From: Loxodes magnus | Lineage: Eukaryota > Ciliophora > Karyorelictea > Loxodida > Loxodidae | DNA: 64,000 nt | NCBI GenBank assembly: GCA_946699065.1 | Contig: CAMPDV010000112.1 | Span: 62,001 to 126,000 of the forward strand | Direction: 5' to 3' | Part shown: in pieces, positions 1,439 through 64,000 of the stretch | Numbering within the stretch: the first letter of the stretch is position 1 | How the letters are laid out: each line of letters begins with the position of its first letter | Program-made: the position numbers and the translations under genes | The notes under the pieces: generated by a model | The model's database searches: none | What the model was told of the DNA's origin: nothing | The model's input: the letters and a program-made list of their open reading frames with translations, nothing else

Positions 1439-3969
1439 ATGAGTATATCAAATGAAGCAATTGGTAACACTTAAGGTAAATAGAAAAGTATGTGGGCTTC
1501 CTTTACTTATTAAAAAAAGAGAAGATAGATGAGACGCTTTTTTGGGTAGAATACTAGCGATAAGGATTAAGAAGTTGAAGAAGCAAAGAAAAATGATTCA
1601 ACAATGACTAGTTTAACTAAAACGATTTTAAGTTTATCACTATAGACAAGTGAATTAAATAGCAAGAAGTCTAATAATAAAGCTTAAAATAATATATTCT
1701 TAAAGACGTTACAGAAAAAGAAGAAAGATGAAGTAGAAGACATTGAATAAAATAAAATTGCTGCATAGTAATAATAAAGCAAGAAAAGGAATCAAAACTT
1801 AAAGTAAGGATTTACACTTGATGGTGCTAAGAGAAAAATGACATTTATAAAGCCCCCTTGGAACTATTTTTTTCCGATAGAGTTTGTAGATTTTGCTCCA
1901 GATAGTCATATTCTAAGAATTTAATTGAAAAAGATTAAACTTTACGATATTATAATTACAATAGGTTCTCTTGTAGGCTATTTTTTTGGTCTATCTGAGG
2001 TAAATTACTATATAGAATAGTATGTATTTTAACGACGGAAATGAAGCTAATATCACTGTAGATACCTTAAGAACATTTAACTGTGTGCTTACCTTGATTT
2101 TAGGTAATTTTAATAATTTTAGTTATTTTGCTGATCAAGAGATCTACTATTATTGTAAACTATCGTAAAGAGTTTAAATTTATTGATTTCAGTTCCACTT
2201 TACTGGAAGATGTTGATTAAATGAAATTTTTGATATTTGACTTATTGATAGTAATATGAGTATGTCCTCCTGGAGTTGATTTTGAAGCAGAATGCGATAT
2301 AATGGGTTCAATATATACATACTCAGCTAGTGATATTATAGTTTTTTTTATGTCCTTTCGTTTCTTTTTCTTACTGAAGCTTGTGTTCACATTTTCAGCT
2401 TATGGGAGTTATTAAGCTGAAAGACTTTGTGACCTTAATGTAGTAAAGCATGGTCCATAATGAATGCTAAAGTGCTTTTTAAAAGACTAACCGTTTTATT
2501 TTTCGACAGTCCTTATGTTTGTATTCTTGATGTTCTTTGGTATGAATGTTCGAATATTTGAGCGTCCATTAAAAGGAGAGGATTCTTAATGATATTATGG
2601 TAATTCCTTATGATGTATTATTGTAACAATGACAACAGTGGGGTATGGAGACTTCAGTCCAAAAACACACATGGGAAGATTAATAGCAGTATCAGCAGCA
2701 GTAACAGGTGCTTACTTGATTTCGCTGCTAGTTATTTCCCTTGCTTCAAATTTATGTGATCTAAGTAGTTGTGAATAGAATACACTACTAGAAGTTACAA
2801 TTAACGAAAGGAAGAATAACTTAAAGCAACTGGCAGCGTAAATCATTTAAAGGCTCTTTAGAAATCACTAATGTAAGAAGAATTAAATTATTCCTACAAC
2901 CAAAAAGCAGTCTTTTCCAGCTAAAAATTTACGTTCACTGCTAAAAATAAAAAAAAATAAGGTAAGATGGGATTTAAACGCTCAGGAAATACTTAGACAA
3001 TTGATTTTCTAGACTGAAGTTGTATTTAATGGTTATAAGATATAACTCTCAAATCTTGAATAAATCTACAATAAGCTGGAAGAGGTTAGAGTAACATAAG
3101 TAAGTTAGGTTGCAAAACTATAAGAAATGATATTCAAAACTATATTCATTTCTAATTTTTATCATACTGATTAAACTGATTCTAATACTAAACCGCTAAC
3201 TTAAACTAAAATACAATTAGGTTAATCTCTTAGCTCATAGACCAAAAGAAATATGATTAATGCATTAGCAAAATATCAGTTTAACAGAAAAAAAATGAAT
3301 CAATTTGATGGATTGAAAATGATTACTAGCATCGAAAAACTGTTTAAACAGATAGAAGTTTAGAAATCTCAATCCTATAAAGATTTTGATTATTATAGAG
3401 AAATAATGAAAGTAGATTCAAAATAGCTTAATGAAGACTACCAAGATATAGCTAAGGATATTATTAGTAGCAAACAAAACAGCAAACATTTTGGCTTCCT
3501 AAAAGCCATATTTGAGAGAAGTCTTTCTTTTAAAAAAAGTTTTCCTCCTTAGAAAGCTATGAAATAAAAGGATAGAGTTAGCAAAGAAGAATAAAATAAA
3601 TAGAATAAGAAATTTTAGAGTGATTTTGCTTATTAAAAGATAACAACCTTAAGGACTGACGTAAGTTCAAATCCAGCCAGTTCAAGTAATTCTCCCGCAA
3701 AAATTACCAGCAAAGAAAAGACATCACCTTCGAAACTCGGACAATCTACTACTTTTCAAACTACAACTTCAACTTAAGTTATACCAGAAGTAGATGAAGA
3801 GTAATCAGGTTCAGTTTAGGATATAATTTAAGAAAGCAGATAAAAGTTAATACCTACATTTGTTTTTTTCAATGTAAAAGAAGATAAGGCAATAGAAGAG
3901 TTGAAAGATATTGAAGAAATAGCTATTTAATAATCTAATATTGTCAGTATTATTTTAGTGTTGAATTGA
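1439..3969 (+). CDS. Six-TM potassium channel, SK-like
   Basis: Predicted 831-residue plasma-membrane or ciliary K+ channel. The selectivity filter T-V-G-Y-G-D lies near residues 386-391, flanked by hydrophobic S5 (F-L-M-F-F-G-M-N) and S6 (A-Y-L-I-S-L-L-V-I-S). Four more hydrophobic segments precede it. A basic Q-rich helix just after S6 sits where SK channels bind calmodulin, and there is a long polar C-terminal tail. Two inferred introns, 16 nt (2000-2015) and 19 nt (2104-2122), join three frames into one protein and fall in or beside S1/S2; a 19-nt alternative for the second one starts about 20 nt earlier. TGA reads as Trp several times, including I-W-V-C-P-P before S4 and S-L-W-C in the pore helix. 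The final TGA is preceded by tandem TAA codons at about 3928, so a shorter C-terminus is possible. The SK-like assignment rests on architecture only. Confidence 0.88.
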
Positions 3970-11798: not shown

Positions 11799-14140
11799 AT
11801 GGAAATCTTAGGAGCAGTAAAAATAAAAGACGGCTTGTTCATTGGGGATGAATTTGCAGCATAGGATTTAGATTTTCTGGTAGCTAACAAAGTGACTCAT
11901 ATCATAAACTGTGGAGCTAATTAAATTCCTAATCACTGGCAATAAGTTGGAGTCTAATATCTTTCCTTTTAATGGCTTGATAGTGACTCTTAAATAATAT
12001 TTGACATGAAGAATCAAGTTGTCAATGATATCTTTAATTTTATTTAAAAAGCTCTAAGTGCATGCGAAAGTGTACTTGTGCATAGCATTAAAGGATAATC
12101 CAGAGCTTGCTCTGTTGTGATTGCCTTTTTGATGAAAAAGTTTAGATGGTCACTTTTTAAAACGCTTGAGTTTATGAACTCAAGAAGACCAGATCTTTAA
12201 ATAAGAAATTGCTTCATTTAGTAACTAGCTGCTCTTGAAAATAGACTCGTAAAGGCAGGTCTTTGGGTAAAGACAACTAAATGAAGCGAGTTAAGTCATA
12301 ATTAAGAGTACATATATGAAGAGCTACTTTTAAGGAATACTTACCTGAACTCCCTAATATTAACTAACACCTAGAAGCAATAAAAACTTTCCTAGCCTTT
12401 ACTAAAATAAACTAAAGCACTTAGAATCACTTGGTCTGATAATAATACTAATGACGTTAAAAAGTTAACTAACTTCTCACATTTTCAGTCCAGAAATCCA
12501 ATAAAGAATGGATTTGTAATTATAAAATCCTGCATAAAAGGAGCAAAAACCTCAGAAACCTTCATTCCTATAAAGTATGTCTCTTAAGCTCTTTCTTAAA
12601 AATTAAAAATATAAGAAGAGACTAGCTAAATAAAGAATTCAATAAGCAATTAAATCAGCAATATTTCTACTTAAAATAGCTCTTTTGCCACTGAAGAGAA
12701 TAAGAAGGAGAATCTCCATAGTAAAAATAGTATAAATGAGTCAAATAAGCAAATAAAGAAAGTAAGACCTCCATCTCCTATACAAATATCTCAGGTAAGA
12801 AATCCAACCACTTAGTAAACCTCAATCCATTAGTTTCTCTTACTTAAGTAAGCATAGTAATAATAAGTTAACTTGATTCAAAAGTATTAAGCTTAATAAT
12901 AATCTCTATAGTAATAGCCATAGAAATAATAATCATTATCTAACTAACTTTCTTAGTTCTAGTACCAAAATGAAAACAGAGCTAGCATAATTTAAAGACT
13001 ATTAGATTAAAATTAAAAGCAAGAAAGTAATAACCAATAAAGCGAGCCTTAGCACAATACTAGTGATTATCTTAACAATATCCAGTAATAAAGTTAGTTA
13101 TTAAGGATAAAATAAAGGTTTAAGTAGGAAATTGAATAGTAGAAAAAAGATCAATAAAAGCTTCAAATGCAGTTGAAGATAAGCTCTAATTCATTTTAGA
13201 GTTATATTTCTTCGATAGAATAGTCAAAATAAGTTACACCAAATAACTAGTAATAATAATCTCAACCATATACACCAATTTATATTAAAAAGCAGTAGTA
13301 AAGTAGCGAGGAATTTAAGAGCTAAAAAGATTAAACCAAAGTGACTATATAGTAAGATAAAAATTATGATTTACCTTTTAAGAAAGAAGAAGCTAAGTAA
13401 GTTTCTAGTTTGTAATCACCTAAGGCAAAATAATCTACCATAAGTATTTAACTGCAAAAAAATAAATCGGAGTGCTAAAAGGATTTTGCAATTTTATAAC
13501 TACCGTAAGATATTTAATACTTAGTAGATAATAAACTGAAAAAGATGTAGTGAGAACTCGACCTGAATCAGCTCCAAGGTATTTTTCATTTATTTTTAAT
13601 TAGATCTGCAAGAGGTGAATCACCATAAAGTTAGGTCTAAAGATAATCCCAAACTCCAACCAAAATAAATGGAAGTCAAGATCATCCTTTAACATCTGCT
13701 TAAAATAACATTGCTAGCTTTTTATAAAGAACGTTAAATGGGAACTAAGTGAATGTTTAAGATAAAGAGTAAGCTAAAAAGGCACCTATAAAGTAATAAA
13801 TTATATTTTCAGATCTTCTAAAGAAATCATACAAAAGCATAAATAGGAGAAGCTGCAAGATAACTACAATGCCATAAAGGAGAAGTTTAGTTCACTCCTA
13901 AATGGATAATTAAATACTGAAAGAAAAATTATTATAAAGCCTTAAACTTCTATTATTATGAGAGCTTAATCACCTACTCCTGGAATAAAATCTAACTCTC
14001 AGCTAAATTTCGAAAGAAAATCTAGAATAGAAGAGTTCTAAAATACCAATTCTAAAAGATCGTAATCAACTTCTTAATCAGCAATTCTATTATCATTAAT
14101 GAAGGAAAGGAAAAGTTTGGTACAATTAAAAAAGCATTGA
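11799..14140 (+). CDS. Dual-specificity phosphatase-like, Cys replaced by Ser
   Basis: Predicted 773-residue protein. Residues 1-170 form a dual-specificity phosphatase domain: K-D-G-L-F-I-G-D-E start, V-T-H-I-I-N-C strand, and the signature loop V-L-V-H-S-I-K-G-Q-S-R-A. The family loop is H-C-x5-R; here the catalytic Cys is Ser, so it is probably a phosphate-binding pseudophosphatase. The remaining 600 residues are Gln/Ser/Asn-rich and low complexity, with TAA and TAG supplying most Gln, and end in a basic coiled segment. A 20-nt intron at 13793-13812 restores the frame for the final part, which ends K-K-H and TGA. A second possible intron near 13573 (25 nt) was not accepted because the downstream frame reads better without it. 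Trp by TGA occurs in K-W-S-E-L. Confidence 0.82.
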
Positions 14141-24483: not shown

Positions 24484-24780
24484 ATGGCCTCAAAGTTCAA
24501 AAGAGTTTTGCCTCTTCTCAATAGAGTTTTGGTTAAGAGACTAGATGCACCTAAAAAGACTGCTTCTGGAATTATTTTACCAGACAAAGTTGACTTTGAA
24601 CTTGCGACTGTTATGGAAGTCGGGCCAGGAGTTGTTGAAGAAGGAAAGTTCAGAGAATGCTTCGTAAAGAAGGGACAAGTTGTAATGCTTCCTAGCTATG
24701 GAGGCATGGAATTCGAATTCAAAGGAGAGAAAGTAAATATTTATAAGGATTCTGAGTTCCTGGCCGTCTTTTAGGAATGA
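24484..24780 (+). CDS. HSPE1: Chaperonin 10 (GroES/HSP10)
   Basis: 98-residue co-chaperonin that caps the Hsp60 ring in the mitochondrial matrix. The whole Cpn10 fold is visible: the start L-P-L-L-N-R-V-L-V-K-R, then the mobile-loop segment K-K-T-A-S-G-I-I-L-P, then A-T-V-M-E-V-G-P-G, then V-V-M-L-P-S-Y-G-G and the final strand. Length matches the family. The last codons are TTT TAG GAA TGA TGA. With TAG as Gln the protein ends L-A-V-F-Q-E, close to the usual acidic Cpn10 C-terminus, which supports TGA as the real stop; termination at TAG would lose only two residues. No intron. It shares a 55-bp divergent promoter region with the upstream reverse gene. Confidence 0.97.
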
Positions 24781-27188
24781 TGAGTCACAAACAAATTAAA
24801 AATTTTTAATTTTAAACTCTTATTTACACTTCTAACCCATAACTCCTATCTTATATCAACAGGTCTATAATTAACCTTCCATTATTTAACATATTAACAT
24901 TAGCTAAAAGTAAAGTGTGGCTGATACCTAACTGAAACTATTATTATATAAGAACAAAAAACCAAATATGGTAAGCAGAGAACTAGATAATCAAGATTTT
25001 ACTAGTTAAATGAATTAAATTTATGCTTGCTGAGATATTGCGATAATAAAGGTGTAATCCCTTCTTATTCTATAACTAGCAATAAATATAAAATGTATAC
25101 CTGATTTTTATAAGTCAGTAGAATAAATTTCGTAGACCAAAAAGGAATAAGGTATGTTAAATATAAAAATCTAATAAAGTAGATATGAGAATAAAGCTTT
25201 AAAGCTAGATAATTTCATTAAACTCTAAGCTAAGTATACAATAAAGGATAAAATATTACTAATGAAGGTAAAACGGTAAGTAATTTAGAATATACCAAAA
25301 TCAAAAAGTATCAAGCTTAGAAAATAGTCCCAAATAAATAATGAATAGACATTCTCAAATAGAAAGCAACAATTAATGCTGATTCGGTTAAAATATCTTA
25401 ACTAAATTAGCATGTAGAATATAAAAAGTTAAAAGTACTAATTTAATTTTGATTTTTCAGCATATTTCTTCAATATTTGTTTCTCTATCTACTAAATCAT
25501 TATTAATACCTTATAGCTATAGTTCAGTTATAATCGATTTTTCACTTAAGTATAAAAGTAGTTTAAACGAATAGACTTAATTAAATGCAAAATGGTATAA
25601 AATCTAATTGCATCAATTCTACTTTTTCAAGATACTCAGTATCCCATTATCTCAATTCATTTAGTTCCTCTCTTAATTTCACACTTCTAACACTTATCAA
25701 TACAAAATAGAAATAAACCTTTTATACAAGCTAATGATTAAATAATCAATAGATAAAATAGAAAAGCCTTGCTAATAGAAGGTTTATAATTTTTATTAGC
25801 ATAATAAAGCTAAAACTTCATAGTTTTTAGCTTATAAGCATACGATTCTATTACTTTAATATTGGTATGATTCAATCTTTCTCCTTATTATATTAACCCT
25901 TCAAAAATTAAATAAAGATTAGTCGTTTATTACTTCCTAGTGTAATTAAAGCAAGTAACTAGTGTATGGTAATCTATTATATATGCTTCCATATTAGCAG
26001 ACTAATTGCTTTAATAGTACAATTCTTAATGATAATCATGCTAATAAAATTAGTTAGCTTACCATAATTCCATTTTTAGTGTAAGCTAACTAAGAGTTTA
26101 TGCTTAAACCTATTGCTTTATTATTTAAATTAGCAGAACAAAATAGAGGTATGAAAGTGAAAATAATTGCAGTTTTAAGAGCGAAAGATTCCCTATAGCT
26201 ATGTAAGGTAAGATTGATAGACTAGTAATAGCTATTCTAAGTATAATACCTTAACTAATAGGATCAAAACTAAATTAATTGATTAGATAATTACTTATTA
26301 ATACATTCTCCAGTTTAAAGGAACACTTTAGGATAAAATGAATAGTATTCAATATAATATCTAATTAGCTTCAATACTCATATTTAAACTAAGGAATTAT
26401 AATTAGTTTATCAGGTTTCCTTACTATGCAATATAAATTAACTATATGATACTATTAGATTTCATATACTTAGTATACTAACTGAAGGATATTTAATCTA
26501 TTCTACTAGTAACTTAGTTTAGTTGCTTACTTCAATGATACCAATATAATATACGTTCCTAGTACTTAGAGAGCTTATAGTTATCACTTTTACTTAAGAT
26601 GAATCTTAATTTATTTCTAGTCAATTTTTTCCGACTAAAGTAATTGAATTAAATCTAATCTAGTAAGTTTTAAACTTAGATAGGAGCTAAAACAGAAAAA
26701 GCTTTCTATATAGCTACTGGTAATAAAATAGGTTTGGTAATTAATGTTATTGTATTTGATTATTGATTTATAAGCTTAAATAATAGCTACGAGATTATAT
26801 TATGATACTATTAAGCATAGTATACCTTTTAAAGAGGTATATAGGCTTAATTATTCTAGTTTGTTCAACATGAAATCGAAATATAGAAAGGAATAAATTT
26901 GCTTTGCTTAAGATAATTGCATTTATTCTTTAATTTAGCTTTGAAAGCTGTAATAAGGCAGATGCTACGATAAATAAATGCTAGTATGACTAACTTAAGA
27001 CATCTTCTTATTCATATCTTAACTAGTATTTACTTTAGTCTTTATTAGAATAAATCTCCTTATCATTTCCTTGTTCTTAGTAATTAACTAAGTTGCTTCA
27101 ATACCCAGAAGATTAAAATTCTAAGGAATCAGTGCTATATATATATTACCTGATTATATACATAAAGCAAAATAATTAAAGGGTAAAA
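24781..27188. other. Long AT-rich intergenic region
   Basis: About 2.4 kb between chaperonin 10 and the EGF-RING gene. No gene, tRNA or mobile element recognised. It contains an exact inverted repeat at 26050-26093. Confidence 0.5.
26050..26093. repeat. 13-bp inverted repeat with 18-nt loop
   Basis: Arms TTAGTTAGCTTAC (26050-26062) and GTAAGCTAACTAA (26081-26093) are perfect reverse complements. The stem is long and contains GC steps, which is less likely by chance than pure A/T dyads. It could be a cruciform, a terminator-like hairpin or the remnant of a small inverted-repeat element; no flanking duplication was found. Confidence 0.65.
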
Positions 27189-28598
27189 ATGAGGATTAAA
27201 AGACTGGTGATAATATTTTAGCTGAATATAATAAAACTAGTCTGATGCTAATGATTCCAATAAGTCACTCAATAAGATGCCTTTTACTATTTTCCTCTTA
27301 GTTATCATTAAGCAAACTTTGTATTAATAGAAGTCTAGACTCTTAATGGTGATACTAACTTCTCTTTAACTGCTAATGAAACTTTAAGTAGATAAAAAAA
27401 TTAATTAGATTTGAATGCTTATAAGTATGTGGACTGAAATGGATATTATTAGAATGAAAACTACTAGTACTTGGTCTTATAGCCTTAGCAAAAGCAATGA
27501 TACATTCAAATTATCAACTTTAAATTTAGTTCAATACCAAGTCTTAGTAGTTACTTGGTATATAATTTGAGTATTATAGAGTCATCATAATATATCTGCT
27601 CTCACAGCTGTTATAATCATGGAAGTTGCAATCAAAGCTGCCTTTGCATTTTTGGATGAATTGGATATGACTGCTCTTAGTAAGCAATTTATGCTGAATT
27701 TGGAAAGGACTATGAATTTAATTTAAGTCCTTAGCAAGTCTAATGATTTTACTTATAAAATGAAAAAGATAATTCTAAGTTATAGATAGTCTACAAAACT
27801 AACTCTAGTAACTTGAAATTTAGTATAAGCATTAAAAGCAAAAGCTATGGAAAAGCCTTATTACCTTCTTAATACGAAAGTCAATATTAATGAACTATTA
27901 CTGAGAGCGGTATCCTATAAATTAGGATGGAAAAAGACTAGTGGTATGTTAAAGTTACCAATATCAATTTTGAAGATGCATAGCTGTCTGTTATGTTCAA
28001 AAATAAAAAGGAGAATTAGAAAAGAAAGTAAAGTAAAATGTCTAAGATACTGATCTCTATTACTCTTTCAATAGTCGTTTTAATTCTGATTTATTTGATG
28101 TGTCTGTTTTTCAATTCTTGCAAATAGCATACTTAAATACTAAACTCCAGTAATTTACACAATTAATCTGAAAATATACCTTAAAGCTAAAATGAAGAAT
28201 TCGTAATCCCAGACTTTCCAGCAAAATAATTTGGTACGATTATACAAAATAAGAAGAAGGTTTATAACATGGAATGTGTAATTTGCCTAGAATAGTTCAA
28301 GCAAATTGATTTAATAAAAGAACTGCCTTGTACACATTTATATCACAAATGCTGCATTGATGAATGATTCAAACATAACTCTTTCTGCTGTATTTGCAAG
28401 AGAGATTATAATAACTATGAAATATAGCTTCAAAATGGAGGTCTAAATGGTCTTTAGAGCATATAGTAGCAAAGCACAAGCATGTAAACTCATATCCAAT
28501 CATTGGCTGAGTTTAACTAGGAGTTCGATAATACAACAGTTATTAATTAGACATTCGACTAGAACTTAGAATTTTAGAGCATAGAAGAATCGCACTGA
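27189..28598 (+). CDS. EGF-TM-RING-H2 membrane protein
   Basis: Predicted 469-residue single-pass membrane protein in one uninterrupted frame. It starts with a basic and hydrophobic signal peptide (M-R-I-K-R-L-V-I-I-F), then an ectodomain. An EGF-like module lies at about residues 137-165 (C-Y-N-H-G-S-C and C-L-C-I-F-G-W-I-G-Y-D-C). A beta-rich segment follows, then one transmembrane helix at about 286-310 (I-L-I-S-I-T-L-S-I-V-V-L-I-L-I-Y). The cytosolic tail carries a RING-H2 finger from residue 363 (C-V-I-C, C-T-H-L-Y-H-K-C-C, F-C-C-I-C). TGA encodes the Trp after I-D-E in the RING and the Trp of the EGF G-W-I-G motif. The layout resembles PA-TM-RING E3 ligases, with EGF in place of PA; ligase activity is inferred. 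Confidence 0.9.
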
Positions 28599-29837: not shown

Positions 29838-31376
<1,539 letters not shown>

Positions 31377-31522
31377 TTATACTTACTTAAATAGATATAA
31401 TTATTATACTTTAAAATCATTCTTACATTATTATGCTATACTTTCCTTTTTAATTCAAAGCTAAGAAATTTCTATTCCTTTTGCTTATAAAAGTTAGTAA
31501 GAAGGAAAAAGCTGTGATTGAT

Positions 31523-34731: not shown

Positions 34732-36336
34732 ATGAACGGTTTAGTAACCATTGTAGCAACATTGTTAATAGCTTAAATTAGCCAATCTGCTAACTTTTAG
34801 ACAGTACAAATTCCAGTCTTTAGTAATGCAATTGCTTAAGCAATCACTGTTAAATTTAGAGCGGTTAACACAAATTGCTGGCTTAGTGAATATTTCACTC
34901 CTTCTTAGTCAGGTGAATGGTTTTATATAAATGCTTGGGGACTTGCATGGAATTATGTTGATGTGTTTTAGAGAACTGAAGGAAGCTTTTAGATATAGTC
35001 TGTAAAAACTAGCAAATGGGTTGTTGCTTGGTCAAATGGAAACTCTTCAGTTGATGTAGCATCAGCAAAAGCATAAGGATGGGAAACTTTTAAGTATGTG
35101 AAAGTTGGAAGTGATGCAATCAAAATAATGAAAGGTATTTATTATTTGACTCTTATCAATGGAAAAATGATGGCAATAGAAACAAATGCAAGTAAAGCAG
35201 AAGTTTTCTAAGTTTATCGAATTACCTAGAGACTTAATTAGAAAATATCAGGAGTAAATTTAGGTTCATGACTTGTTTTGGAGAAATGGATGGTACCAAA
35301 CGTTTTTCAAGGTACTTAAGCAGTAGACTATTATACTTGGTGTTAGGAATTAGGTTTAAGCTAATGTACTAGTAGATTAACACAACATATGGATACTTTT
35401 CTTAATTTAGAATCAGATTTTGCTTGGCTATAGTCAAAAAATATTAATTTAGTAAGAATTCCAGTTGGATTTTGGATAACAAAAACATAGTAGGAACTTA
35501 TTGATCTAGGATTACCTTATTCCAATGTAGGACTTTAACATTTGGATAATGCCTTTAGAATAGCATAGAATTATTAAATTGATGTCTTGATATCTTTTCA
35601 TGGAGCTATTGGATCATAAAATGGAGCTGATCATAGTGGATAAAAACGTGATAGAGAGTATTGGACTACAAATCTCACTTTCACTCTTCCTGACACAGTA
35701 AAGTCCTTAACTTTTTTAGCATAGAGATATTCAAGCTATCCAAATTTCCATGGAATAGGTCTTCTTAATGAACCCTCTACATCAATTTCCTTTTCAACTC
35801 TAGAAACTTTCTATAAGCAAGCATATGACTCTATTAATTAAGTATGTCCTTAATGTTTTGTATGGATGAGTGATAGTTGATTAGGATCGTCACTATTTTC
35901 AGACACGCGTATTCCTAAGTTCTCTTAAAAATACTAACGTGTTATAGTAGAATCACATGATTACTAAGTATTTGATTCATATACCAAAAGCTTGAGTTGT
36001 TAAGGTCACTTAGATTATACTGATACTTAATGGAGATAGCAATATTCAGCTGTTTCTTAATTCTATATGATAGCTTCTGGAGAATGGAGCTTAGCATTGG
36101 AAACTTGTACATATAGTGGAATGACATAGTAACAGATAGATCAGTTTAAAACAAACTTTGCCTAAAAAATGCTAGCAGTATTTAACATAGGAGATGGAAG
36201 TTGTTTTTGGGCGTATAAAAATAGTGTTGGATGGAATGATTGGCAATTTGTATCAAGCGTTAAATATATTCAACCTCAATCAACAAGCTTCTTGGAAGTT
36301 AAAGCAAAGAAAGTAAGAAAGCATTATGATAACTGA
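34732..36336 (+). CDS. Exo-1,3-beta-glucanase, GH5 family
   Basis: Predicted 534-residue secreted glycoside hydrolase that removes glucose from the ends of beta-1,3-glucans. Signal peptide M-N-G-L-V-T-I-V-A-T-L-L-I-A. Residues about 25-170 form a beta-trefoil-like/fascin-like region with repeated Trp and Val strands. The GH5 barrel follows: G-S-W-L-V-L-E-K-W, then N-L-V-R-I-P-V-G-F-W, then I-S-F-H-G-A. The acid/base motif L-L-N-E-P-S has Glu at about residue 347 and the nucleophile motif A-S-G-E-W-S has Glu at about residue 451. Both catalytic Glu are present. TGA encodes Trp in G-S-W-L and D-S-W-L-G. No intron. It resembles fungal and oomycete exo-beta-1,3-glucanases; roles could be digestion of algal or fungal food or remodelling of a cyst wall. 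Confidence 0.93.
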
Positions 36337-37414: not shown

Positions 37415-38461
37415 TCATACTCTCAATCTTACTAAGCTTGAGAATTCTTTTCTTAAATTTATTTTCGAAGTTTACACGGAAGGAATTGGACTTGATTATG
37501 ATTCATAAGTAGTTTTCCATAACAATTAATCTTCTTAAATTTTCTTTTTAACTGGCTATTGAGGAGGATTTTCAATATATGCAGGAAACTTTGAAATCGT
37601 TTTATCTATTATGCCTTTTTTTGGGGGATTAGAAGGAATGAATGGATTTTCATGGATCACCTTACTAACAGATACAGATCTAATTACTTTCTTGTATTTA
37701 TATGGCTTACCTTTTCTGGAAAAATACCTCCATAAGTATCTATGTTATTAGAAAATGAGTTTCCATGTAAAGAAACAGGCTTGAAAGGGTTTTCTTATAG
37801 TTTAGCACGATGCAGTGCTCTTTCTTTAGTAGCAATTTTTCAAGCATTATTATAATCATCTTCTTTATGATAAGGATACTTAGCTAATGTAATATCCGGA
37901 GTCATCGAAGTTCCTTTTTTGGGAGGATTTGTTAGGATGTTTCTAGGCCCTATTATGACCTATCCTTACTCATCTTTATGCGCAATTTTCTTTACTATAG
38001 GATCTTAGGGTTTGTAATTGTAATCTGTGTAACGATGAGATACAGAACCACAAGGTACGAATTAAACCTCATGCAGTTTTTATGCTTTTTAAGCTCGAAT
38101 ATGATCATTTAAGTACTTTACTTTTGAATGATCTATATAAGGATCGTTATAAGTATGAAATTACGGTGGACTAAAATAAGCATCAGGGCCTTTCCCTTTT
38201 TTGGGGTTAGTATTTGCAAACTACCTAGGAGCTATTATTACATCTCCATTTGGATCTCTTTATCTTGGCTTTACTTTTCTATATGTAAAATCTTAATCAG
38301 AATACAGAGGAGCATAGCTAAACAAACCATATCGATGACTATTTATTAAAAAAACATTACAAGCTTGTGTTTAATATAGAAGAGGTGAAGTACTTTTCTC
38401 TATTAGTCTAATTCAAAGCTTCTCTTTCTGTTTCACTCAATCTTTTTCCCATTTTCTTCAT
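37415..38461 (-). CDS. CFAP96: Cilia- and flagella-associated protein 96 (C4orf47 family)
   Basis: 335-residue axonemal protein; members associate with ciliary microtubules and basal-body regions. Family landmarks: the early R-Y-G-L-F-S-Y-A-P-L block, two N-P-P-K-K-G or N-P-K-K-G repeats (T-N-P-K-K-G-K-G-P-D-A-Y-F, L-T-N-P-P-K-K-G-T), and the late S-N-P-P-K-K-G. Three exons: a 22-nt intron (38339-38360) precedes R-Y-G-L-F, and a 17-nt intron (37711-37727) lies between G-G and K-P-Y-K-Y-K-K. Exon lengths sum to a multiple of three. One Trp is TGA (N-N-A-W-K-I). The stop TGA is immediately followed by ATG in the same frame. It is the clearest cilium-specific gene here and fits a ciliate host. 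Confidence 0.9.
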
Positions 38462-38644: not shown

Positions 38645-39253
38645 TCATATTGCATTACTTCGAAGGTTGTCTAGATAGCACTATCTACATAAAGGTATAT
38701 ATTTGTCTAAACCACCCACTACTTTTAAATTTGTTTCACTGGTTGTTCTAAACGAAAATGCTGCTTATGTACCACATTGAACACATACAGAAGTAAGTTT
38801 GCTGACGTCTTCGGATTTAGCAACTAGCTTACATATTTCTAGAAAAGGTTCTCTTTAGTAGGTAGCGTCTAAAGCTGACACTATTACTATTTTTTTATTA
38901 TTAGCTAGTTTGTCACTGAAACTTACAATATCTTCAAAAAAATGTCCTTCATCTACTCCAATCACATCATAATCAAGAGCTTTATCATACTATTCCATCA
39001 AAGAAATACATCTTTCAGCTTAAAATTTTACTTCTTTGTCATGATTTATTATTAAATCATCCTACTCTTAGTAAATCTTAGAGTTCCTGTCGTCTTTGCT
39101 CCATTTAAACAAAATACACTTAGCTCCAGAAATCTGAAACCTCTTTATTCTTCTTATTAGCTCTGAAGTTTTTCCAGCGAACATAGGGCCAATAATGAGT
39201 TATACTAATCCTTATGGTTAAGTTTTATAAGCCTTACTGAAATAATGTTTCAT
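38645..39253 (-). CDS. TK1: Thymidine kinase, TK1 type
   Basis: 202-residue cytosolic deoxythymidine salvage enzyme (dThd + ATP to dTMP). The P-loop G-P-M-F-A-G-K-T-S-E-L lies at about residues 23-33, followed by R-R-I-K-R-F, the Walker-B-like I-G-V-D-E-G-H-F-F and S-A-L-D-A-T-Y lasso region. The C-terminal zinc site has C-V-Q-C-G and C-R-Q-C. Length is typical of the family. One frame, no intron, TGA directly after N-A-I. It lies 183 bp upstream of the CFAP96 start on the same strand; nothing suggests co-transcription. All active-site elements are intact, so it should be functional. Confidence 0.95.
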
Positions 39254-47556: not shown

Positions 47557-49149
47557 ATGTAATTCTAAGTTGGAGACATAAAGGAAAAGATCAGAGAGTA
47601 TTTAGATGGAAAGACGATATCAGAAGAAATGCTAGATAAAGTTACTAACGCAGTTAAGAATCTTAGCATTGACTAGAGACTTCTTGCTGAAATTGAATCT
47701 TTTATGCTAAACATCTAATAAATGGAATTTGGATAGTAGCATTATTAAAATTTTGAAAACAAGGTTATAAAACCTGTATAAACTAAAGGCTAAAATAGCG
47801 AGTTAAAAAGTGGTTTGTAAAAGCAAGTTCAGTAAGTTTAATCAAGTGCTTAGTAATAAGGATAATCAAATTAAAAATAGCTTAATGTGAATAACCAAAA
47901 TTTGGTCAATGTTTTAAGCAAACCAAATGAATAGCAAATAAAAAGTAATAAAGTTCCACTCCTTCAAAGAAATAATTCTTTTTTATGTGCGGAGTATGTA
48001 ATTTTCGACTTTACTTACTATGATTTTAGATAAGAGCAGATTTTCTATGAAATTTAGTAAAGGATAAAATATTATGAAAAGCATCTAATGGCATCACTCA
48101 AGAAGGCTAAGAATAAAAACTTTGAAATAGGAGTCATTTTTATAGAGGAAGATAGAATAGTTCTCAAAAACTCCTATGATGAGTTTCAAAGGAATTAGAA
48201 AACTTTTGTACTATAATTTAAGGAAGAACTCTAGATAAGATTGCATGAAGGCTAAATATCACTTGTTGTAGGTACGACTTAAGATGAAAATTTGTCAAAG
48301 AGAGAATGAAATTATGATGTAGATGAAATTTTTACTCTTGAGCACTGTAGTTAAAGTATAAGATAAGTTTCTCTTACTCATTTGCAAAACTTGAGTATAG
48401 CAATAGCAAATGGTCCTTTTACAAATCCACAAGATTTTAAGTATCGAGAGATGAAACTTTTCTTTCAATCAATCTAAAATAATCCACCTGATGTAATAAT
48501 TTTGACAGGACCTCTTGTGGATTTGAATCATGATTCTATTATTGAAAAAAATTATGTGATTGATGAAGCATTCGATTTGAAGGGAATGTGGTCTTATGAT
48601 GATATTTTCTAAAACATCGTTTAGCTAATATATTAAACTGTCTCTTCATTTACCAAGAAATCAGAAGTTTGACTGATTCCTTCAATTAATGATGTAATAG
48701 TATGTAGACCACTTCCATAGAGACCTATTGAAATACCTAGTCGACTTGAAAATATAATAAGTAGCTCCAGTAATCCTACAGTTCTTAAAATAAAAAACTA
48801 ACTTCAAATAGTTGTTAATCCTGAAGGCCTTCTTTCTAAAGCCACAAGCAAGGTTTCTCCAGATATGAATCAGCAAAACTTAGTTGAATTTGGATTAAAA
48901 AGCATAATAAACGACAAATAGTTGCTTTCCAAATATTTTTTAGTTAAAAGTCAAGACATCAATGAAGATTGCTTTTTCCATGAGGCTCCTGAAATAATGA
49001 TATGTCCTGAAGCTTCTATGGATCCTTTCAATATAATATTGGACGGTATTCATTGCATCAATCCAGGAGTAGCGTCATCCCAAGTAAAAACATACTCAAG
49101 AGTGAATGTTTAGGCTGGATAGATATAGGTAGAAATTGTATCTTTTTGA
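47557..49149 (+). CDS. POLA2: DNA polymerase alpha subunit B
   Basis: 530-residue regulatory subunit of the primase-polymerase alpha complex in the nucleus. It has an N-terminal helical domain, a Gln-rich linker in which most Gln are TAA/TAG, an OB-fold region, and the inactive calcineurin-like phosphoesterase domain: L-S-I-A-I-A-N-G-P-F-T, then D-V-I-I-L-T-G-P-L-V-D, then W-L-I-P-S-I-N-D-V, then H-E-A-P-E-I-M-I-C-P and N-P-G. Metal-binding His/Asp of active phosphoesterases are absent, as in the family. One frame without introns. It ends V-E-I-V-S-F then TGA at 49147; reading that TGA as Trp would add only W-K-F before a TAA. Trp by TGA is seen at R-E-W-N and V-W-L-I. Confidence 0.93.
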
Positions 49150-52152: not shown

Positions 52153-53258
52153 TCAACTATGCATCCAATTTACTCTTTTTCCATTATCCCATTTACCCTT
52201 TTTAATAGAACCATCTTGGTTTATATAGCAACCATCTCCATGCTATTTTCCGTCTTTTCATCCACCTTCGTAATGTCTTCCGTCTGCCCATACATAAACA
52301 CCGTAACCATGCTTTTTGTCATTTTTGTATTCTCCTACATACTTTCGGCCATCTGCTCAAGTATAAGTACCTTTTCCATGCATATTATTATTTAATCAAT
52401 CTCCTTCAAAAGTTCTTCCATCTGCTCACAAATATTTGCCTTTACCGTTGATTTTGTTTTCACTTCAATTTCCTTCATAATAAGATCCATCAGTCCAAAA
52501 ATATTTTCCAAATCCTGTCTTTTACCCTACTTTATATTATCCTTCGTATTTTGATCCGTCTATCCAGGTTTCAACGCCTGCATTAAAAGTTACCTTCTCC
52601 ATCTTAAAGATCATCTTTTCAATTTCCTTCATATTTAGCTCCATTAATATGTGTATAAACCCCTCTACCATTTGCTTTATCATCAATTCATTCTCCTATA
52701 TAAAAAAGTACCTTCAAATATATCGCCATCTACATGCCAAAAAGTACCATATCCACAAGCTCTGTTTTCCTTTCATCTTCCTTCATATTTTGCTGAATCA
52801 GGCCAAATCTATACGCCTTACCCATGCCTCTTTCCATTTTTCCACTAGCCTCTATAAATAGCTCCAGTTTTAAAAGTATAAGTAGCTTATTCATTACTAG
52901 GAGTTGTAAATTCTTCACCCATAGATTCGATTGTTTCTTAATACTCACTCTGCAAAAAATATCTTGCACTGCCTCTGCGTTACTACTTCAAATGATTAAC
53001 AAGCACTCTAGTTTAATATCCTCTTCATGCAGCTTAAAGCTTGATAACTTATTTAACATGTTACTTATATTTCTAAATGATATCCTCTTTAGACTTACTA
53101 TGACTACTAGATTAGGTACTATACTATATTTCATTTTGCTGCTCTTTTTTCATATTCTTCTTCTCAAATTTAGGTTACTGGTTATTCTTTATCTCTATCT
53201 ATGATGACCTTTCAAACTCTTTTGTACAGTTGCAGTCTGAGCAATTCAAATTTCCCAT
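52153..53258 (-). CDS. MORN-repeat protein with IQ-like motif
   Basis: 357-residue protein in three exons; introns of 16 nt at 52696-52711 and 52578-52593 each fall inside a repeat and restore its phase. The N-terminus [11 protein letters not shown] fits myristoylation plus palmitoylation. An IQ-like helix follows (I-K-L-Q-A-A-W-R-G-Y-Q-T-R), then about eight to nine MORN repeats ([25 protein letters not shown]). The conserved Trp of the repeats is TGA in about half of them and TGG in the others, an internal control for the code. MORN proteins link membranes to the cytoskeleton and are common in cilia. It ends W-M-H-S then TGA. Confidence 0.95.
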
Positions 53259-54511: not shown

Positions 54512-57445
54512 TCAGTTAATCTTATATCCGTTATATATATCTTGATCTTTCTAATTCTTATCATCCGGATTTTAGCTTGCTTCTATTAAGTTAGCCTTCT
54601 TTTTGAAATACAGATATTAGCTTAAGTAACATAGAGTAATTGAAACGAATATTAAGAATAGAAACGTGAATAAGTATTAAGCCACTATGAAATTAGTTCT
54701 TTTACTTTGAGTTTTCTTTTTGAAGAAAGTTTAATTTGCCTCCAAGTCTATAAACTAGATCATGCTTTACCTTTTTGTTTAAAAAGGAGATTTATTTTTT
54801 GTTCTCTTCTATAATTATTTATCTAATGGAAGATTAACCCTTTAATGAGATTAGTTCTAATCTTTCTTATTTTTCCATTATTATTTTTAGATCTTTTACA
54901 GACTTCTAAAAGCAGGAGATTCTTTTGCATCTTACCTTTAAATATATTTCTTTGCTTATATATCTATTTATTAGCTCTAAATTATACTCCTTTTGTCATT
55001 TTATTGTTGAGTATCATTTTACGATTTTTTTATTTTATTATCCTTCAAGCTTTTTAATGATTTTTACTATAGTTAATTACTTGTCATGTTTTTAGATTAT
55101 GATATATACGAATAATTTTTGTAATCATTCTGAGTTAATTCTTATGTATATTATATCATTATTTTACTGCTATTTTTTTCAATTTCTTTCTTATTCTCTT
55201 AAAGCAAACTATTATTATTAATCGTTTTTATATCTACCTTTTATGATTTTTAGATTTAATGTAAACCTTAAGATTAGTTCGTTTATCTATGTACTAATGT
55301 TTAGTTTATATCTTATAACTTAACTTCCTTAATAGTATTATTTTATTTATTTTCCTTAGCATTTTATAATTAAGTTTAGTTATCCTCTTTTACAACTTCT
55401 TTTTCATTTTTAGAGTGTTAAATGGATCTATTGTTTACTTTTATTTCTTGAGAGATATTTATTCGCTTGGTATGATTAGTTTAACTTATATTTTAATAAA
55501 AAGCTTCTTTTATTGAGATATTTTCATATGATGAAACGTTTTAATTGATATTAGTGATATTTAAATATATACCAAGCTCTGATTTTTTTGGTTCTTCTTT
55601 TTAATCAGTGGAATTTAAGTTTTTGATCTAAGTTGCATTATTAATTTTTATATCCTTAACTGTTTAATTTACACTATCTATTTACATATAATCAAAGGAA
55701 GTCTATTTTGAACTATTGCTACTGAAATTAGTATTATTCGCTTTTGAGATATTCTAATATGTAGAATTCTAAATACCTCTTGCTGGTTTAATTTCTTAGT
55801 TTTCATTTACTTTATTAATAGATTTTTGTTAAGTGGAATAAAGCGAATTAGTCTAATTATTAAGATATTACTTTTTAGTTGTATTAGCTTCTTGGCTGTT
55901 CTTCTAATAAAACTCTTATGATGCATTTATTTCCTTTTCCTAGATCTAGCTGCTAGTATTCCTAGTACTTGTATTTTCAGTATCAGGCTCTGTATTATCT
56001 ATACCTTTTCATAGAGAAGTTTTATTTTAGATTATAAACTAAGAAATCAATTAAGTTTTAAGGAAATTCTAAACTATTTGATATTTAAAGTTTTCTGAAA
56101 AATTGGAATTTTCTAATCCAACTGATTACATAAATTTTTTATCGTTTATAATTACTTTTACTATATCTTAGGTAAAGTTATTTTTGGTGAAGTAAGCATC
56201 AAGAATCTGGGAAAGTTTCTAGTCTTTATTATTAAATTTTTGATTTTGGTATTTCAGTATCTATTAGGAATCTTTTTAAATCTTTCTAGTTTCTAGTTTC
56301 TTTTTATCAAAAGCACTATTATATGTAATAATTTTCCTCTCTTTGGTAGTTTCTTTATCAGTTATTATTTCAGTTTGCTCGCTATTTTTCTCATTAGTAC
56401 CCTATGTTTCTGCATTCAATCCATTATCCATTCTTTCAAATTATGAAGGATTAGGGTACATTTAGTTAAGAAACTACAGAGTTTCCTACTAAGTATATTC
56501 GATTATTTGAGGATCTTCTGTTTCAATGTTATCATTCAAGCATATAAACTTCTATCTAGAACTTATCAATTTTTTGAACTACTTTTTATCATACTCTTTA
56601 TTACCAGACACATACATAAAACCAAAGGTTATAGGATTCTGATTAATAGGTTTTCCTTTAATAGTTACCTTATTCTCAAACATAGATAGGTTCTTTTTAT
56701 AATACCTCTAGAATACTCTAAACATTTCGCTATTTTTGATTAAATCTTCAGTTTTTAAGTTAATTTTATCAAACTATCTTTTTAAGGTCTCGTTGAAGAA
56801 AAAGCTTTCAACGATTTAGTTATTTAGATCAATTCCTTCTATGTTTAGGTTAGTAAACTATATTATTTAGTCTTTTAGTACTTTTAATAAATTATCTATC
56901 TCTTGCTTTATATAAACTGTCTTATCTGATTGTGAAATTATCTATATCCATCTTTTATAATCTCCCTTTTACATCAATTGGTTTTCCTCCCATTCAAAAT
57001 GCAGCTTTAGTATAATTAAATAGACTTCAGGAAGACTTATAACTCCGTTTTAGTCTTAGTCAATCTTTCGTATTTCTTTGCTATAAGCTTCGCGTACTGA
57101 ATGCATACTTAGATCTATGATTTATACTCCTTTAGCATCTATTAGAAACTACTGGTATAACTATAGAATTATAACACTTTCGTTTGCTCTAAATTTGAAT
57201 GAAGAAGATTTCTCAATTTAGGGTTTTCAAATTTCTTAGATTTAGTTTAGAATTTACCTGTTCATTAAGAAAGGAACATGGTTATAATTAGCTCTTTTGC
57301 CTTGTAGCTTAAAATGCTGGTTAACTAGGTTATTAGTATTCTCCATTGCTAGATTTCATAAATCCGTTTTCTTTACTTTTGTGCTCATTTACTTAAATAG
57401 TCTTATCTTCTACTCGTTATTTTCTATGAAGTCCTCAATAGACAT
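54512..57445 (-). CDS. Large EF-hand protein with C-terminal TM helix
   Basis: Predicted 977-residue protein in a single 978-codon frame, no intron. The N-terminal 200 residues hold at least one canonical EF-hand loop (D-Q-D-Q-N-G-V-I-S-L-P-E) with flanking helices. A middle region is structured and charged (T-I-K-G-K-P-I-N, F-G-F-M-Y-V-S-G-N-K). Then come 400 residues of low-complexity Asn/Gln/Lys/Ser sequence. Near the end one hydrophobic helix (Y-L-F-T-F-L-F-L-I-F-V-S-I-T-L-C-Y-L) is followed by a short basic and acidic tail. Trp by TGA: D-L-W-N, E-I-W-K, S-L-W-K. It ends at TGA 54512. No family recognised; the layout suggests a calcium-responsive membrane-anchored scaffold. Confidence 0.8.
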
Positions 57446-57901
57446 TTATTACCCTAAAAAAAAGTCATCGTTGAAGTAAAAGAATCAGTCAGTTAGATTT
57501 TGGATTTTGTTGAGTCATAAATCAATGGCAAAGGAATTAAAGGTAGGCAAATGAGATGTGCTAGGGAATGTTTAGCTGTGTGTTACTATCTGTATTTTAG
57601 GATTTGACAGATTTAGTCAGTTTGGCACTTAACCATTAGTTAATAAGTAGATTTTGTTTAATTTGCTTTTAGGGAAATATAAATCAACTGACCGAAGGGA
57701 GTATTTCAGTTCTTGGTTATCTCTTATTCTGCTTTCAGGCTAATAGCCGTATTTTTTCATAAGCCCTTAATAAGAAGGACTAGTTCCATTTACTCATGTA
57801 AATACAATATCTACTTTATCTATCTAAGCAAAAGAGGTTATTAAGCAAATTTAAAAGACCCCAATTAAGGATTTTCAGGTAATTTTCATTTATAGTAAAA
57901 A
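57446..57901. other. Divergent intergenic region
   Basis: Upstream of the EF-hand/TM gene and the MFS gene. An in-frame-looking ATG at about 57500 on the minus strand could be an upstream exon, but no clean link to the main ORF was found. Confidence 0.45.
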
Positions 57902-59728
57902 ATGGAAAAACATCACCATATTAATAACTCTTCCCCTATTTAGAGTCCTTAAGCATAGAAATAAATCAAGTTAGATGTTCTTAGTCAGTCAGATGTATGA
58001 GCGTATTCTCTAGGTCATTTAATGAATGATCTTGTCGTTTGCTTGTTTTTTACCTATTATTTATACTTTGTCATAGGAGTTATAGGTCTTGACTCTTAAT
58101 TAGCAGGAGCATCAATTTTACTTGGATAAATAGTTGATATTACTTCAACGCTTTTAGTTGGTCATTTCTCTAATAAAATAAATACAAGGTTTGGTAAGAG
58201 AAAACCATGGTATACTATAGGAACTTTATTAACTGCAGTTAGCATTTTAAACTTATTCTGGAAATGTGCCTTGTGTGGCTCTTCAAATTAGGATATTTAC
58301 GAGTTTCTCTGGTATGCTACTTGTATAGTTATATTAAATATTGGATTTTGCTTTGTACAAATTAATCATATGTCTCTAGTTCCTGAAATCACCTACAGTT
58401 ATGAAATGAGAAATAAATTAGTTAGCAACGTCAATCAAGCTACATTTATGGCTAATGCCACCTTATTAATAGTAGCATTACTATGTGTTCTTTTGTTTGA
58501 AAAGCCTTTGACTTAATTTAATATGCTTAGCTTATTCACCTGCTTAATTGGAGCTTGCTTTAATGTTTTTTTCATTGTAAAGATTGATGAAATTCGCTTA
58601 ACAAGTAAGGCTGAAGCATTAAAACAGGAATAAGATTAATCAATTTATTCATCGTTGATTAGTCAAATTCACTCTTAATATCTAAGCTTAGAAAATAGCC
58701 AAAAAAAGAATTTTAAGGATGAAGGCTTATTTCAGATACCAGAAGAGCAAAGCAACGTGACAAGTAGAAAAGATTCAGGCAAAAAGACTTCTTTCTCTTC
58801 ATAAATTTAAGGGAAGACACGCAGAGTTACTAACGAAAGAATGACTTTTATTAGCTTAATATAAAACGTGGATTATAACAATGAAAGATTCTCAGATTAG
58901 AGTTCTTATATTTGTGATACAGAAAACTAAAGCCAAGATTAGTAAAACAATAAAGGATGAAAAGAACTACTTATGACCAAGAATTTCTATTATTCTGGCT
59001 TGATGTATATCACTGCTAGGCTTGCCAATAACATATCTATGGCTATGCTTCCATTTTATTTGATTAATATTTTACATGTAGACGGGATTTCAAACTTAGA
59101 ATAAACTTAGTCAAGAACTCCTTGGCAGATTATGGTAGTACCCATGAATATGTACTTAGGAAGCTCACTTGCATCGTTTTTCATGAATAAAGTATCTATA
59201 AAAATGAGGAAGAAGTTCGTGTATGGAATAGGAACTTTCATTGCCTTTATTTCACTTATTCCTTTTGTTCTGTTAGATGAACATACTTATCCTTGAATAT
59301 TCATAGCATGCTTTTTCCTTGGTTTAGGTCTTTCAATATAGTTAGGTGCAGCTATGTGCTTAATAGCTAACTACGTTAATTTAAGAGGAAGAGGAGGAGG
59401 CTTTATTTATAAATCCTATGCTCTTTCTGATAAAATTCTTAGTGGAATTGTCCTTTTTATTGTTGCAGGAACTCAACTATTTTAAAACCAAGACGACCTA
59501 TTTATACTTTGTATGATAATCGGTATTCCAAGCGCTAGTTCCTTAATTGGATTTTTGAGTGCATTAGCTAGCAAGACTCAAATTTAGGAATGTGTAGATT
59601 AAGAGTTAGACGAAGAGAACTCAGAAGATCCAGATTCCATAAACAGTGACTTCAAAGGAGACCAAAACTGGAACTCATTTGAAAATATTAACTCTTCAAG
59701 AGATACAAACGCTACTAGAACCTCTTGA
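57902..59728 (+). CDS. Major facilitator transporter, MFSD12/GPH-like
   Basis: 608-residue polytopic membrane transporter of the GPH/MFSD12 type. Six TM helices precede and six follow a Ser/Lys/Gln-rich loop of about 130 residues. Family signatures: G-H-L-M-N-D-L near the start of TM1, D-I-T-S-T-L-L-V-G, F-G-K-R-K-P-W in the TM2-3 loop, M-S-L-V-P-E-I-T and R-L-A-N-N-I-S in TM7. Animal MFSD12 is a lysosomal/melanosomal cysteine transporter; substrate here is unknown. The loop and tail contain many Ser and could be phosphorylated. Trp is TGA at D-V-W-A-Y and Y-P-W-I-F. One frame, no intron, TGA after R-T-S. Confidence 0.93.
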
Positions 59729-62161: not shown

Positions 62162-64000
62162 TCAAATTTTGCATGAAATTTTCTGCTCGTTAGCTTTGTC
62201 TCTATCAATGCATAAAATCCTTCCTCTAGATTTATCTATATATAAGCTTCCCATAATAATATTCCAGTCTTCTTGAGTTCTTTTAATCTTAGTATTTGTG
62301 ACAGGTTATAAAGTCGGAAGGTCAAGTCTTAAGATTTCATCTGAAATCAGATTCCAGGCTTCTATTTTTTATTTGACTTCTTCTTGATAAACTAGAATTG
62401 CATACATTGCTCCATCTAAGCATTCACATCCTTTAGCTATTAATTGCTTTTATACTTTATTAGCTTGCTCAGATAATTAGGCATATCTTCCTGATTTTCT
62501 ATAATTAGCAAATTTGTTTTCGCATATTTTTAATACTTCTTATGGATCTAATGGAGGAGCTTATCGAAGCCAAATAGTGCCATCTTCATTTACTTAGATG
62601 ATTTCTTTTAGTATAAACTAAGCATTTTCGTGAATTAGTTCCTTAGGCAAGCCTGTTAAATTTGCAGCTTGATTCAAAGTAAAGGTAAGATTAGCCATTT
62701 TCCATCCTTTCATAAATACCTAAAATTCTAGTTTATCGGAGTCTTCTAAAATTTGTTTCTGCTTAATCAAATTGATTCTGATATCTATTTGCTTGCTGTT
62801 TATGGTTTGTTATGCATTTATCAAGTTTCCTGATGCTATTTGACTGCAAGCAAAAGCTTAATCTGCAAATGTTAGATTTGGCTTTACTACAATACCTTAA
62901 TAGAGTTTGTCTAGCTTGAAATAAATTCCTTCAGGAGTGATTCGCATTTTTTCCACTACTTTATCAAACTGGGTGTAGATATCATTCACATCAATATTAG
63001 GAAATATCTTCTACCATTAAATGAAGCTAACTTAGTGCTTTAGACTATAATTAAGTTTTCCTATCTCAGAGACATTCCATAGTAGATGATCCTTTAGTGC
63101 GTATATTGTAATAATATAAAAAGCGTCATCTAATTTGATTCCTTTTTTGACAATTAATTTGAATTTTTTGCTTTCTAACTTAATGTTTTTATAGAACTTA
63201 TGAACGCTATACCTCTTCCACATCTTAGCTATAGTATTAGTAGCTTCAATTAATATACTATAAAACCGTTTTGAAATATCCACCTTTACAGTTCTTTTAT
63301 CCTTCTTAATTTTAGTTTCTACACCTAACTTTATTTAATTTCCACGTAGCTCTATTGATTCTGCTAGCTTTTCACATGAAACTTTAATGGAATTCTTATT
63401 GAATGAGGGAAAAATAGCTTTAGGGTCTTAGATCTCTCTCTGAATTGGAATAGAATCATTAAAAGTCTGTTCATAAACCTGGACAACCAAGGTTTTTTAC
63501 TTCTTTTTGATAAAAGTCTCAAAGAAGCTAATGGTGTAATAAAACCCATCTATGTTCTTAATGATTCTAAATACTAATCTTCTTTTTCTAATCCAATGAA
63601 GCCATTTCTAGTAGTACAATCTTCTAGCTTACTTCTTCCTCCAAGATGACTAAATCAAAACTATAGCATTTAGAATCTCCTTATTATTGTATCTTGATCA
63701 GTAGTTGTTTTGAACGTGATTAGCTTATTGAGAGTCGTCAATTGAAGAAAGAGATAGATCAGGTATATTAGGATGATCAATTCCTATTTTTCTTTTCTTA
63801 ATATAAGCACCATTGGTGTCTATTTTAATTATATTTAGTATCTTATCATAGCAAGTTGGAAGCTAAACTTCAGATATTTTTAGGATTTTACAGAGCTCTC
63901 TTAGTCCTATTTTGTTCTTGAACTTTTTGTTAAAGTCTTTTAGCTTAATTATTTCTATCGAAATTTCTCTCCCAAGCTTATAGACATTGATTTCATACTC
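62162..64000 (-). CDS. IQ-motif protein, partial at window edge
   Basis: C-terminal 612 residues of a larger protein; the 5' end lies beyond 64000. Two calmodulin-binding IQ-like helices are visible (I-V-L-I-Q-S-S-W-R-K-K-Q-A-R-R-L-Y and N-T-I-A-K-M-W-K-R-Y-S-V-H-K-F-Y), separated by a beta-rich segment. A globular helical and strand-rich C-terminal half follows (G-W-K-M-A-N-L-T-F-T-L-N-Q-A-A, then D-E-I-L-R-L-D-L-P-T-L). IQ proteins of this kind often bind calmodulin in cilia or cortex. Trp by TGA occurs once early (N-Y-W-S-R). No intron was needed over 1839 nt. The frame ends with TGA after S-C-K-I. Family not recognised. Confidence 0.78.

Follow-up and report, generated by a model that had tools for sequence, protein, structure and literature searches.

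TAA and TAG as glutamine and TGA as tryptophan or stop in a 64-kb window that is very probably ciliate nuclear DNA

Analysis of a 64-kb AT-rich stretch of DNA (27.3% GC from base counts; hereafter the window) revealed that its genes use TAA and TAG as glutamine codons, and that TGA stands for tryptophan inside genes and also terminates them. The evidence supports the identity of this code with NCBI table 27, which is already known: it has been described for Parduczia, in which nearness to the transcript end was proposed as the switch (PMC4967479), and for Loxodes magnus (PMC11441545). UGA serves as a stop in all karyorelicts surveyed, and UAA and UAG encode glutamine in four groups, with UAA being unclear in Kentrophoros (PMC6935857). 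We consider it very probable that the window comes from the nuclear DNA of a ciliate with this karyorelict ambiguous code, the known code that the original prediction, made from the bare sequence, had also named.

All three codons occur inside genes

A segmentation model that contained no rule for stops converged on a coding usage per thousand of 53.4 for TAA, 24.2 for TAG and 4.7 for TGA. Pfam scans, which covered part of the window's frames, revealed eukaryotic genes with matches to potassium channel, dual-specificity phosphatase, RING, CDPK, CFAP96, thymidine kinase, LRR, TPR, RING/ZZ, DNA polymerase subunit B, SAM, MORN, Stealth and Cpn10, in addition to a kinase fragment slightly below the cut-off. 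An in-frame TAA or TAG is present in every Pfam-matched stretch, and TGA in many.

From 34 gene models a set of 23 genes was chosen: 22 were kept, one (the MFS gene) was merged from two models, and ten were dropped by eye (four shorter than 60 codons, one antisense to the potassium channel and five with doubtful ends). Models with Pfam or PDB support, in part weak, number 15 and are termed homology genes; the RING gene was omitted from them despite its Pfam match, and the tails of many extend past the homologous region. Their 8,100 internal codons include 436 TAA, 188 TAG, 164 CAA, 55 CAG, 40 TGA and 54 TGG. TAA and TAG together make up 7.7% of these codons, which argues that they are not dedicated stops, and TAA is 2.7 times as frequent as CAA. 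Sense TGA accounts for 0.49% of codons and for 43% (40/94) of the tryptophan codons. The sense use of all three codons, as originally predicted, is thus abundant within genes that have homology.

Glutamine as the meaning of TAA and TAG

Six genes were rescored with TAA and TAG as glutamine, glutamate or lysine, and the domain bits were summed over CDPK (Pkinase and EF-hand_7), thymidine kinase (TK), Stealth CR2 to CR4, polymerase B, DSPc and CFAP96. The sum reached 977.4 bits for glutamine, compared to 959.7 for glutamate and 954.7 for lysine, so that glutamine leads by 17.7 and 22.7 bits, respectively, and the other two residues are disfavoured. DSPc by itself scored 70.0 bits with glutamine, 63.3 with glutamate and 64.8 with lysine. 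For CDPK, glutamine was compared with eight other residues and X and came out on top on both kinase profiles; on EF-hand_7, glutamate stood 0.1 bit above it. Two results weigh against glutamine: lysine or arginine scored 0.5 to 1.7 bits higher on some single EF-hand profiles of CDPK, and lysine equalled or slightly exceeded it for TK and polymerase B taken alone. A shortened TPR stretch gave no Pfam match under any of the three residues and was excluded from the sum.

TGA is read as tryptophan inside genes

The MORN gene was scored under different readings of TGA. For one stretch, tryptophan ranked top of the nine residues at 110.8 bits, followed by phenylalanine (106.6), tyrosine (97.8), leucine (94.3), serine (88.3), cysteine (79.9), arginine (72.5), glutamine (69.5) and glycine (65.1), with X at 76.4. 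The spliced gene reached 182 bits with TGA as tryptophan versus 122 bits with X.

Sixteen sense TGA sites were then compared with proteins of known structure, with stops masked as X and the residues read by eye in the chains printed from the PDB alignments (3 to 5 per gene). The sites comprise two in CDPK, two in the glucanase, five in MORN, five in Stealth, where the alignments cover five of the six sites, and two in the potassium channel. In the MORN alignments, each chain contributed its first aligned domain; the query contained five of the nine sense TGAs, and two of the three first-domain alignments cover the fifth. The TGAs of the EGF, RING, CFAP96, polymerase and MFS genes lie outside this tally.

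Tryptophan faces TGA in all chains shown at seven of the 16 sites: both in CDPK (5/5 chains), the first in the glucanase (3/3), three in MORN, and one in Stealth, the conserved position at 57617-57619 (3/3). At one further site, TGA 2611 in the pore helix of the potassium channel, the residue is tryptophan in SK2 and tyrosine or phenylalanine in TOK. Phenylalanine or tyrosine occupies five sites, including the second in the glucanase (phenylalanine in 3/3 chains), two in MORN and two in Stealth. Histidine, lysine or serine/isoleucine at the remaining three (two in Stealth, and TGA 2590 of the channel with serine or isoleucine) speaks against tryptophan. In addition, one chain has cysteine opposite one of these MORN sites in a domain after the first.

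These masked alignments confirm the tryptophan positions originally predicted for the kinase, MORN and glucanase genes, the last of which we take to be a GH5 member. The same prediction stood in part for three other genes. The RING domain is recognized (zf-RING_2, 2.6e-9), and its TGA presumably lies at the RING tryptophan. The EGF_TEN match is sub-threshold (E 0.0018), and the translation CLCIFG-TGA-IGYDC places TGA at what we take to be the usual tryptophan of the EGF motif. The MFS_1 match is likewise sub-threshold, with 32.3 bits against a cut-off of 33.4.

TGA terminates genes

For the terminator scan, a gene model was fitted with exactly one of the 64 codons permitted as stop, and the fits were compared in nats. 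TGA ranked first of 64, 13.2 nats ahead of the runner-up AAA, with TAA 14th and TAG 20th; codons of like frequency (AAC, GAT, TCA and TTG) fell 15.6 to 42.4 nats behind TGA. That the scan works is shown by its start-codon version, which was run as a positive control and ranked ATG first of 64. As a second terminator beside TGA, TAA improved the fit by 6.9 nats and TAG by 6.8 (ranks 12 and 13 of 63), compared to 11.5 to 12.6 for TTG, TCT and AAC. Since 11 other second codons improve the fit more, a gain this large can be had from arbitrary codons; between 8 and 16 gene ends go to every one of the 24 best second codons apart from TGA. There is thus no clear support for TAA and TAG as additional stops.

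Five C-termini anchored by homology close at TGA, namely those of Cpn10, CDPK, thymidine kinase, CFAP96 and DNA polymerase alpha subunit B. The Cpn10 profile ends two codons ahead of the terminal TGA, in agreement with the spacing predicted as frequent, 0-2 codons between the last conserved residue and the stop, but the spacing is wider elsewhere. In CDPK, the last aligned residue is 509 of 512 (3 follow); in thymidine kinase, the profile reaches residue 193 of 202 and the PDB match residue 196 (6-9 residues follow); and the CFAP96 match ends at residue 320 of 334 (14 residues follow). In the polymerase gene, TAGs stand 12, 9 and 7 codons ahead of the terminal TGA; judged from match coordinates, the POLA2 match (row 8g99) extends to residue 262 of 269, leaving 7, and passes the TAGs at 258 and 261. 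The masked polymerase query had no match in the PDB at 1e-5, and the unmasked one found POLA2 chains at E up to 1.

Several points weigh against TGA as the only stop. The codon table was seeded from seven long open reading frames free of TGA, and the ends of the 23 chosen genes were set by a model permitting only TGA; the predicted figure of about 22 genes closing with TGA is close to this number, but these ends owe their identity to that model, whereas the first rank of TGA comes from the scan of 64 codons. When TAA, TAG and TGA are all permitted as stops, the fit gains 3.0 nats over TGA alone, with ends distributed as 20 TGA, 9 TAG and 6 TAA. In a stop-neutral segmentation, an in-frame TGA lies within 8 codons of the coding-segment end in 12 of 33 cases, a small excess over the 9/33 in each off-frame and the 6/33 at 5' ends; around the coding-segment ends, the enrichment of TTG exceeds that of TGA. 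This segmentation is too imprecise for placing gene ends. The stop of Cpn10 is ambiguous, because a TAG two codons before the TGA could equally end the gene. A second TGA directly follows the first in Cpn10 (24778-24783), a possible back-up stop.

Codon and base composition near gene ends

None of the 52 sense TGAs of the 23 genes lies within the last 29 codons, compared to 5 of 72 TGGs, and the last 20 codons contain none among 460 codons (2.2 expected). TAA is scarce in the last 20 codons of the 15 homology genes (6/300 versus 16.5 expected; binomial 0.002, random-window P 0.015). TAG is not depleted, with 7/300 versus 7.0 expected in the 15 genes and 12/460 versus 11.3 in the 23. The RING gene has no TAA and three TAGs in its last 20 codons. 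Against these depletions it must be set that the lack of TGA relative to TGG is not significant (Fisher 0.07 for 23 genes, 0.26 for 15), that over all 23 ends TAA numbers 18 versus 25.2 expected (binomial 0.08) or 22.8 in random windows (P 0.18), and that five window widths were tried for the TAA deficit. In L. magnus, UGA and UAA are reported as depleted before stops and UAG is not (PMC11441545), whereas in Condylostoma magnum all three codons are depleted before ends (PMC4967479). The combination of scarce TAA and normal TAG thus leans, weakly, to the karyorelict type.

The GC content is 29.8% over the last 50 codons and falls to 18.4% in the 50 nucleotides (nt) past the stop. Part of this drop was selected, as four of the five models dropped for doubtful ends had at least 30% GC in those 50 nt. 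A similar contrast is reported for L. magnus, with 33.5% in coding sequence and 18.6% in the 3' untranslated region (PMC11441545).

The homology-supported sense TGA nearest to a stop is in the MORN gene, 35 codons (105 nt) upstream. As this TGA is conserved, the zone in which TGA terminates would span less than about 105 nt ahead of the stop.

In the mechanism drawn from the literature rather than from the window, glutamine tRNAs cognate to UAA and UAG, together with a UGA-reading tryptophan tRNA, would compete with eRF1. The release factor would prevail where UGA stands close to the poly(A) tail and the 3' untranslated region is short, a step likewise taken from the literature and compatible with the window. 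No tRNA genes were found within the 64-kb window, and an Rfam search of it returned 0 matches at the gathering score, rRNA included.

Introns

Removal of two introns of 16 nt each from the MORN gene and one of 20 nt from CFAP96 restores the domain matches. The spliced MORN gene scores 182 bits, compared to 95.9 and 110.8 for its two unspliced stretches, whereas CFAP96 matches profile positions 2-295 of 296 with 101.3 bits in one piece, compared to 82.4 and 22.2 in two frames when unspliced. An ab initio scan of fixed lengths from 13 to 33 nt, which is blind to lengths divisible by three, showed no length standing out for GT-AG over four control dinucleotide pairs, the controls often doing better; we therefore claim only the introns of MORN and CFAP96. 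Introns of L. magnus have a mode of 17 and a mean of 19.3 nt, with almost none below 16, and about 95% of heterotrich introns are 15 bp, the remainder being 16 (PMC11441545). The intron lengths thus favour a karyorelict over Condylostoma, and introns of 16 and 20 nt, in addition to a cilia gene, fit a karyorelict ciliate as the source.

Alternative codes and sources

Compared with the karyorelict code of table 27 in Parduczia sp. and L. magnus, the window shares TAA and TAG as glutamine, TGA as tryptophan and as supported stop, the scarcity of TAA but not TAG before stops in the homology genes, AT-rich sequence past the stop, and introns of 16-20 nt. It differs from Parduczia in its frequency of sense TGA (0.49% versus 0.12% of codons; PMC4967479), and from L. 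magnus in the GC content of its coding sequence (29.7% versus 33.5%; PMC11441545). It is unlikely that a lineage outside the sampled karyorelicts reached the same TGA code or uses it far more heavily; were this so, the 43% share of TGA among tryptophan codons means that its switch between sense and stop must be unusually efficient.

Under the Condylostoma-type code, NCBI table 28, any of the three codons can be sense and any of them can close a gene close to the end of its transcript, and the original prediction had kept it in view for a few genes. Its sense meanings are identical to those found here, and the better fit of the three-stop model, the ambiguous end of Cpn10 and the scarcity of TAA near the ends of homology genes all agree with it. 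However, TAA and TAG rank poorly both as second and as sole stop, TAG is at its expected frequency before stops, and two of the TAGs ahead of the polymerase TGA, at distances of 12 and 9 codons, lie within POLA2-matched sequence. Moreover, sense TGA makes up 0.042% of codons in C. magnum compared to 0.49% here, and in C. magnum all three codons terminate and are depleted, whereas in the window only TGA stands out as a stop (PMC4967479). The homology-supported 20-nt intron also misfits heterotrich introns of 15-16 nt (PMC11441545). Altogether, we regard a Condylostoma-type code as quite improbable.

A dinoflagellate (syndinean) resembling Amoebophrya, with the same code and not a ciliate, is a still more doubtful source. 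CDPK and cilia genes are present in both ciliates and the dinoflagellate group, which counts in its favour. Amoebophrya sp. ex Karlodinium veneficum reads UAA and UAG as glutamine and UGA as tryptophan, with UGA as the apparent sole stop (PMC12005148, PMC6394959). However, CAA is its commonest glutamine codon, followed by CAG and then UAA, whereas the homology genes of the window have 436 TAA and 164 CAA; only about half of its gene models hold in-frame stops, and its 3' untranslated regions are longer than in ciliates (PMC12005148, PMC6394959). Introns of 16 and 20 nt are, besides, ciliate-like.

With table 27 remaining the preferred reading, other reassignments have hardly any chance. A Blastocrithidia-type code (UAA and UAG as glutamate, with UAA as stop) and a Blepharisma-type code (UGA as tryptophan, with UAA and UAG as stops) both share TGA as tryptophan; TAA is nevertheless a poorer terminator than TGA, the 7.7% share of TAA and TAG inside genes argues that they are not dedicated stops, and the lead of glutamine over glutamate in six genes opposes the Blastocrithidia type. 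Equally negligible is the notion that the genes are degenerate pseudogenes or misinterpreted non-coding DNA. Some models are spurious (such as the one antisense to the potassium channel), but high-scoring family matches continue across the stops in CDPK, with its 27 in-frame stops, in TK and in MORN, and which residue scores best depends on the codon.

Genes of the window

The genes in which sense or terminal TGAs were located are listed in Table 1.

Table 1. Genes of the window with their introns and their sense and terminal TGA codons
Gene	Position (strand)	Introns	Sense TGA	Terminal TGA	Support
Potassium channel, 3' part	2041..3969 (+)		2590-2592, 2611-2613	3967-3969	Pfam Ion_trans_2 1.8e-14
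Dual-specificity phosphatase gene model	11799..14140 (+)			14138-14140	DSPc; 3' exons and stop from model only
Cpn10 (GroES/Hsp10)	24484..24780 (+)			24778-24780	Cpn10 2.8e-16, profile to 93/93; PDB alignments
EGF-like and RING in one frame	27600..28598 (+)		~27657, 28365-28367	28596-28598 (modelled, uncertain)	
CDPK	29838..31376 (+)		30588-30590, 30807-30809	31374-31376	Pkinase 266.8 bits
Exo-1,3-beta-glucanase-like	34732..36336 (+)		35269-35271, 35878-35880	36334-36336	PDB alignments
CFAP96 (cilia/flagella-associated)	37415..38461 (-)	37691-37710 (20 nt)	37840-37842	37415-37417	
Thymidine kinase	38645..39253 (-)		0	38645-38647	TK 187.0 bits, profile to 176/176; PDB alignments
DNA polymerase alpha subunit B-like	47557..49149 (+)		48307-48309, 48670-48672	49147-49149	DNA_pol_E_B 58.5 bits
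MORN-repeat gene with weak IQ motif	52153..53258 (-)	52578-52593, 52696-52711 (16 nt)	nine	52153-52155	
Stealth/GNPTAB-like phosphotransferase	54512..57760 (-)		six	54512-54514	Stealth_CR2/CR3/CR4
MFS-type transporter	58370..59728 (+)		58958-58960, 59294-59296	59726-59728	MFS_1 6.3e-8

The N-terminal part of the potassium channel (within 1439-2870) lies in another frame than the pore, which an intron or an assembly slip near 1980-2050 may explain. The glucanase-like protein is preceded by a weak, sub-threshold DUF7910-like match. The C-terminal half of the Stealth/GNPTAB-like protein is very rich in glutamine and asparagine, in a ciliate-like genome. In the MORN gene, a further TGA lies six codons past the terminal one.

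Pfam at E 0.01 returned no family in six frames of 31.4-34.5 kb, on the plus strand of 19.7-22.1 kb and 15.9-18.2 kb, or on the minus strand of 20.0-22.1 kb. The 3.1 kb without Pfam match at 31376-34510 may be non-coding or hold a gene overlooked by the model.

Implications

The phenomenon itself is already published, and the window adds gene-level cases of conserved tryptophan at TGA. The MORN gene, whose nine sense TGAs come as close as 35 codons to the stop, would be well suited to measuring the distance from the mRNA end at which the switch operates. A codon with two meanings set by its position shows that stop codons need not be dedicated.

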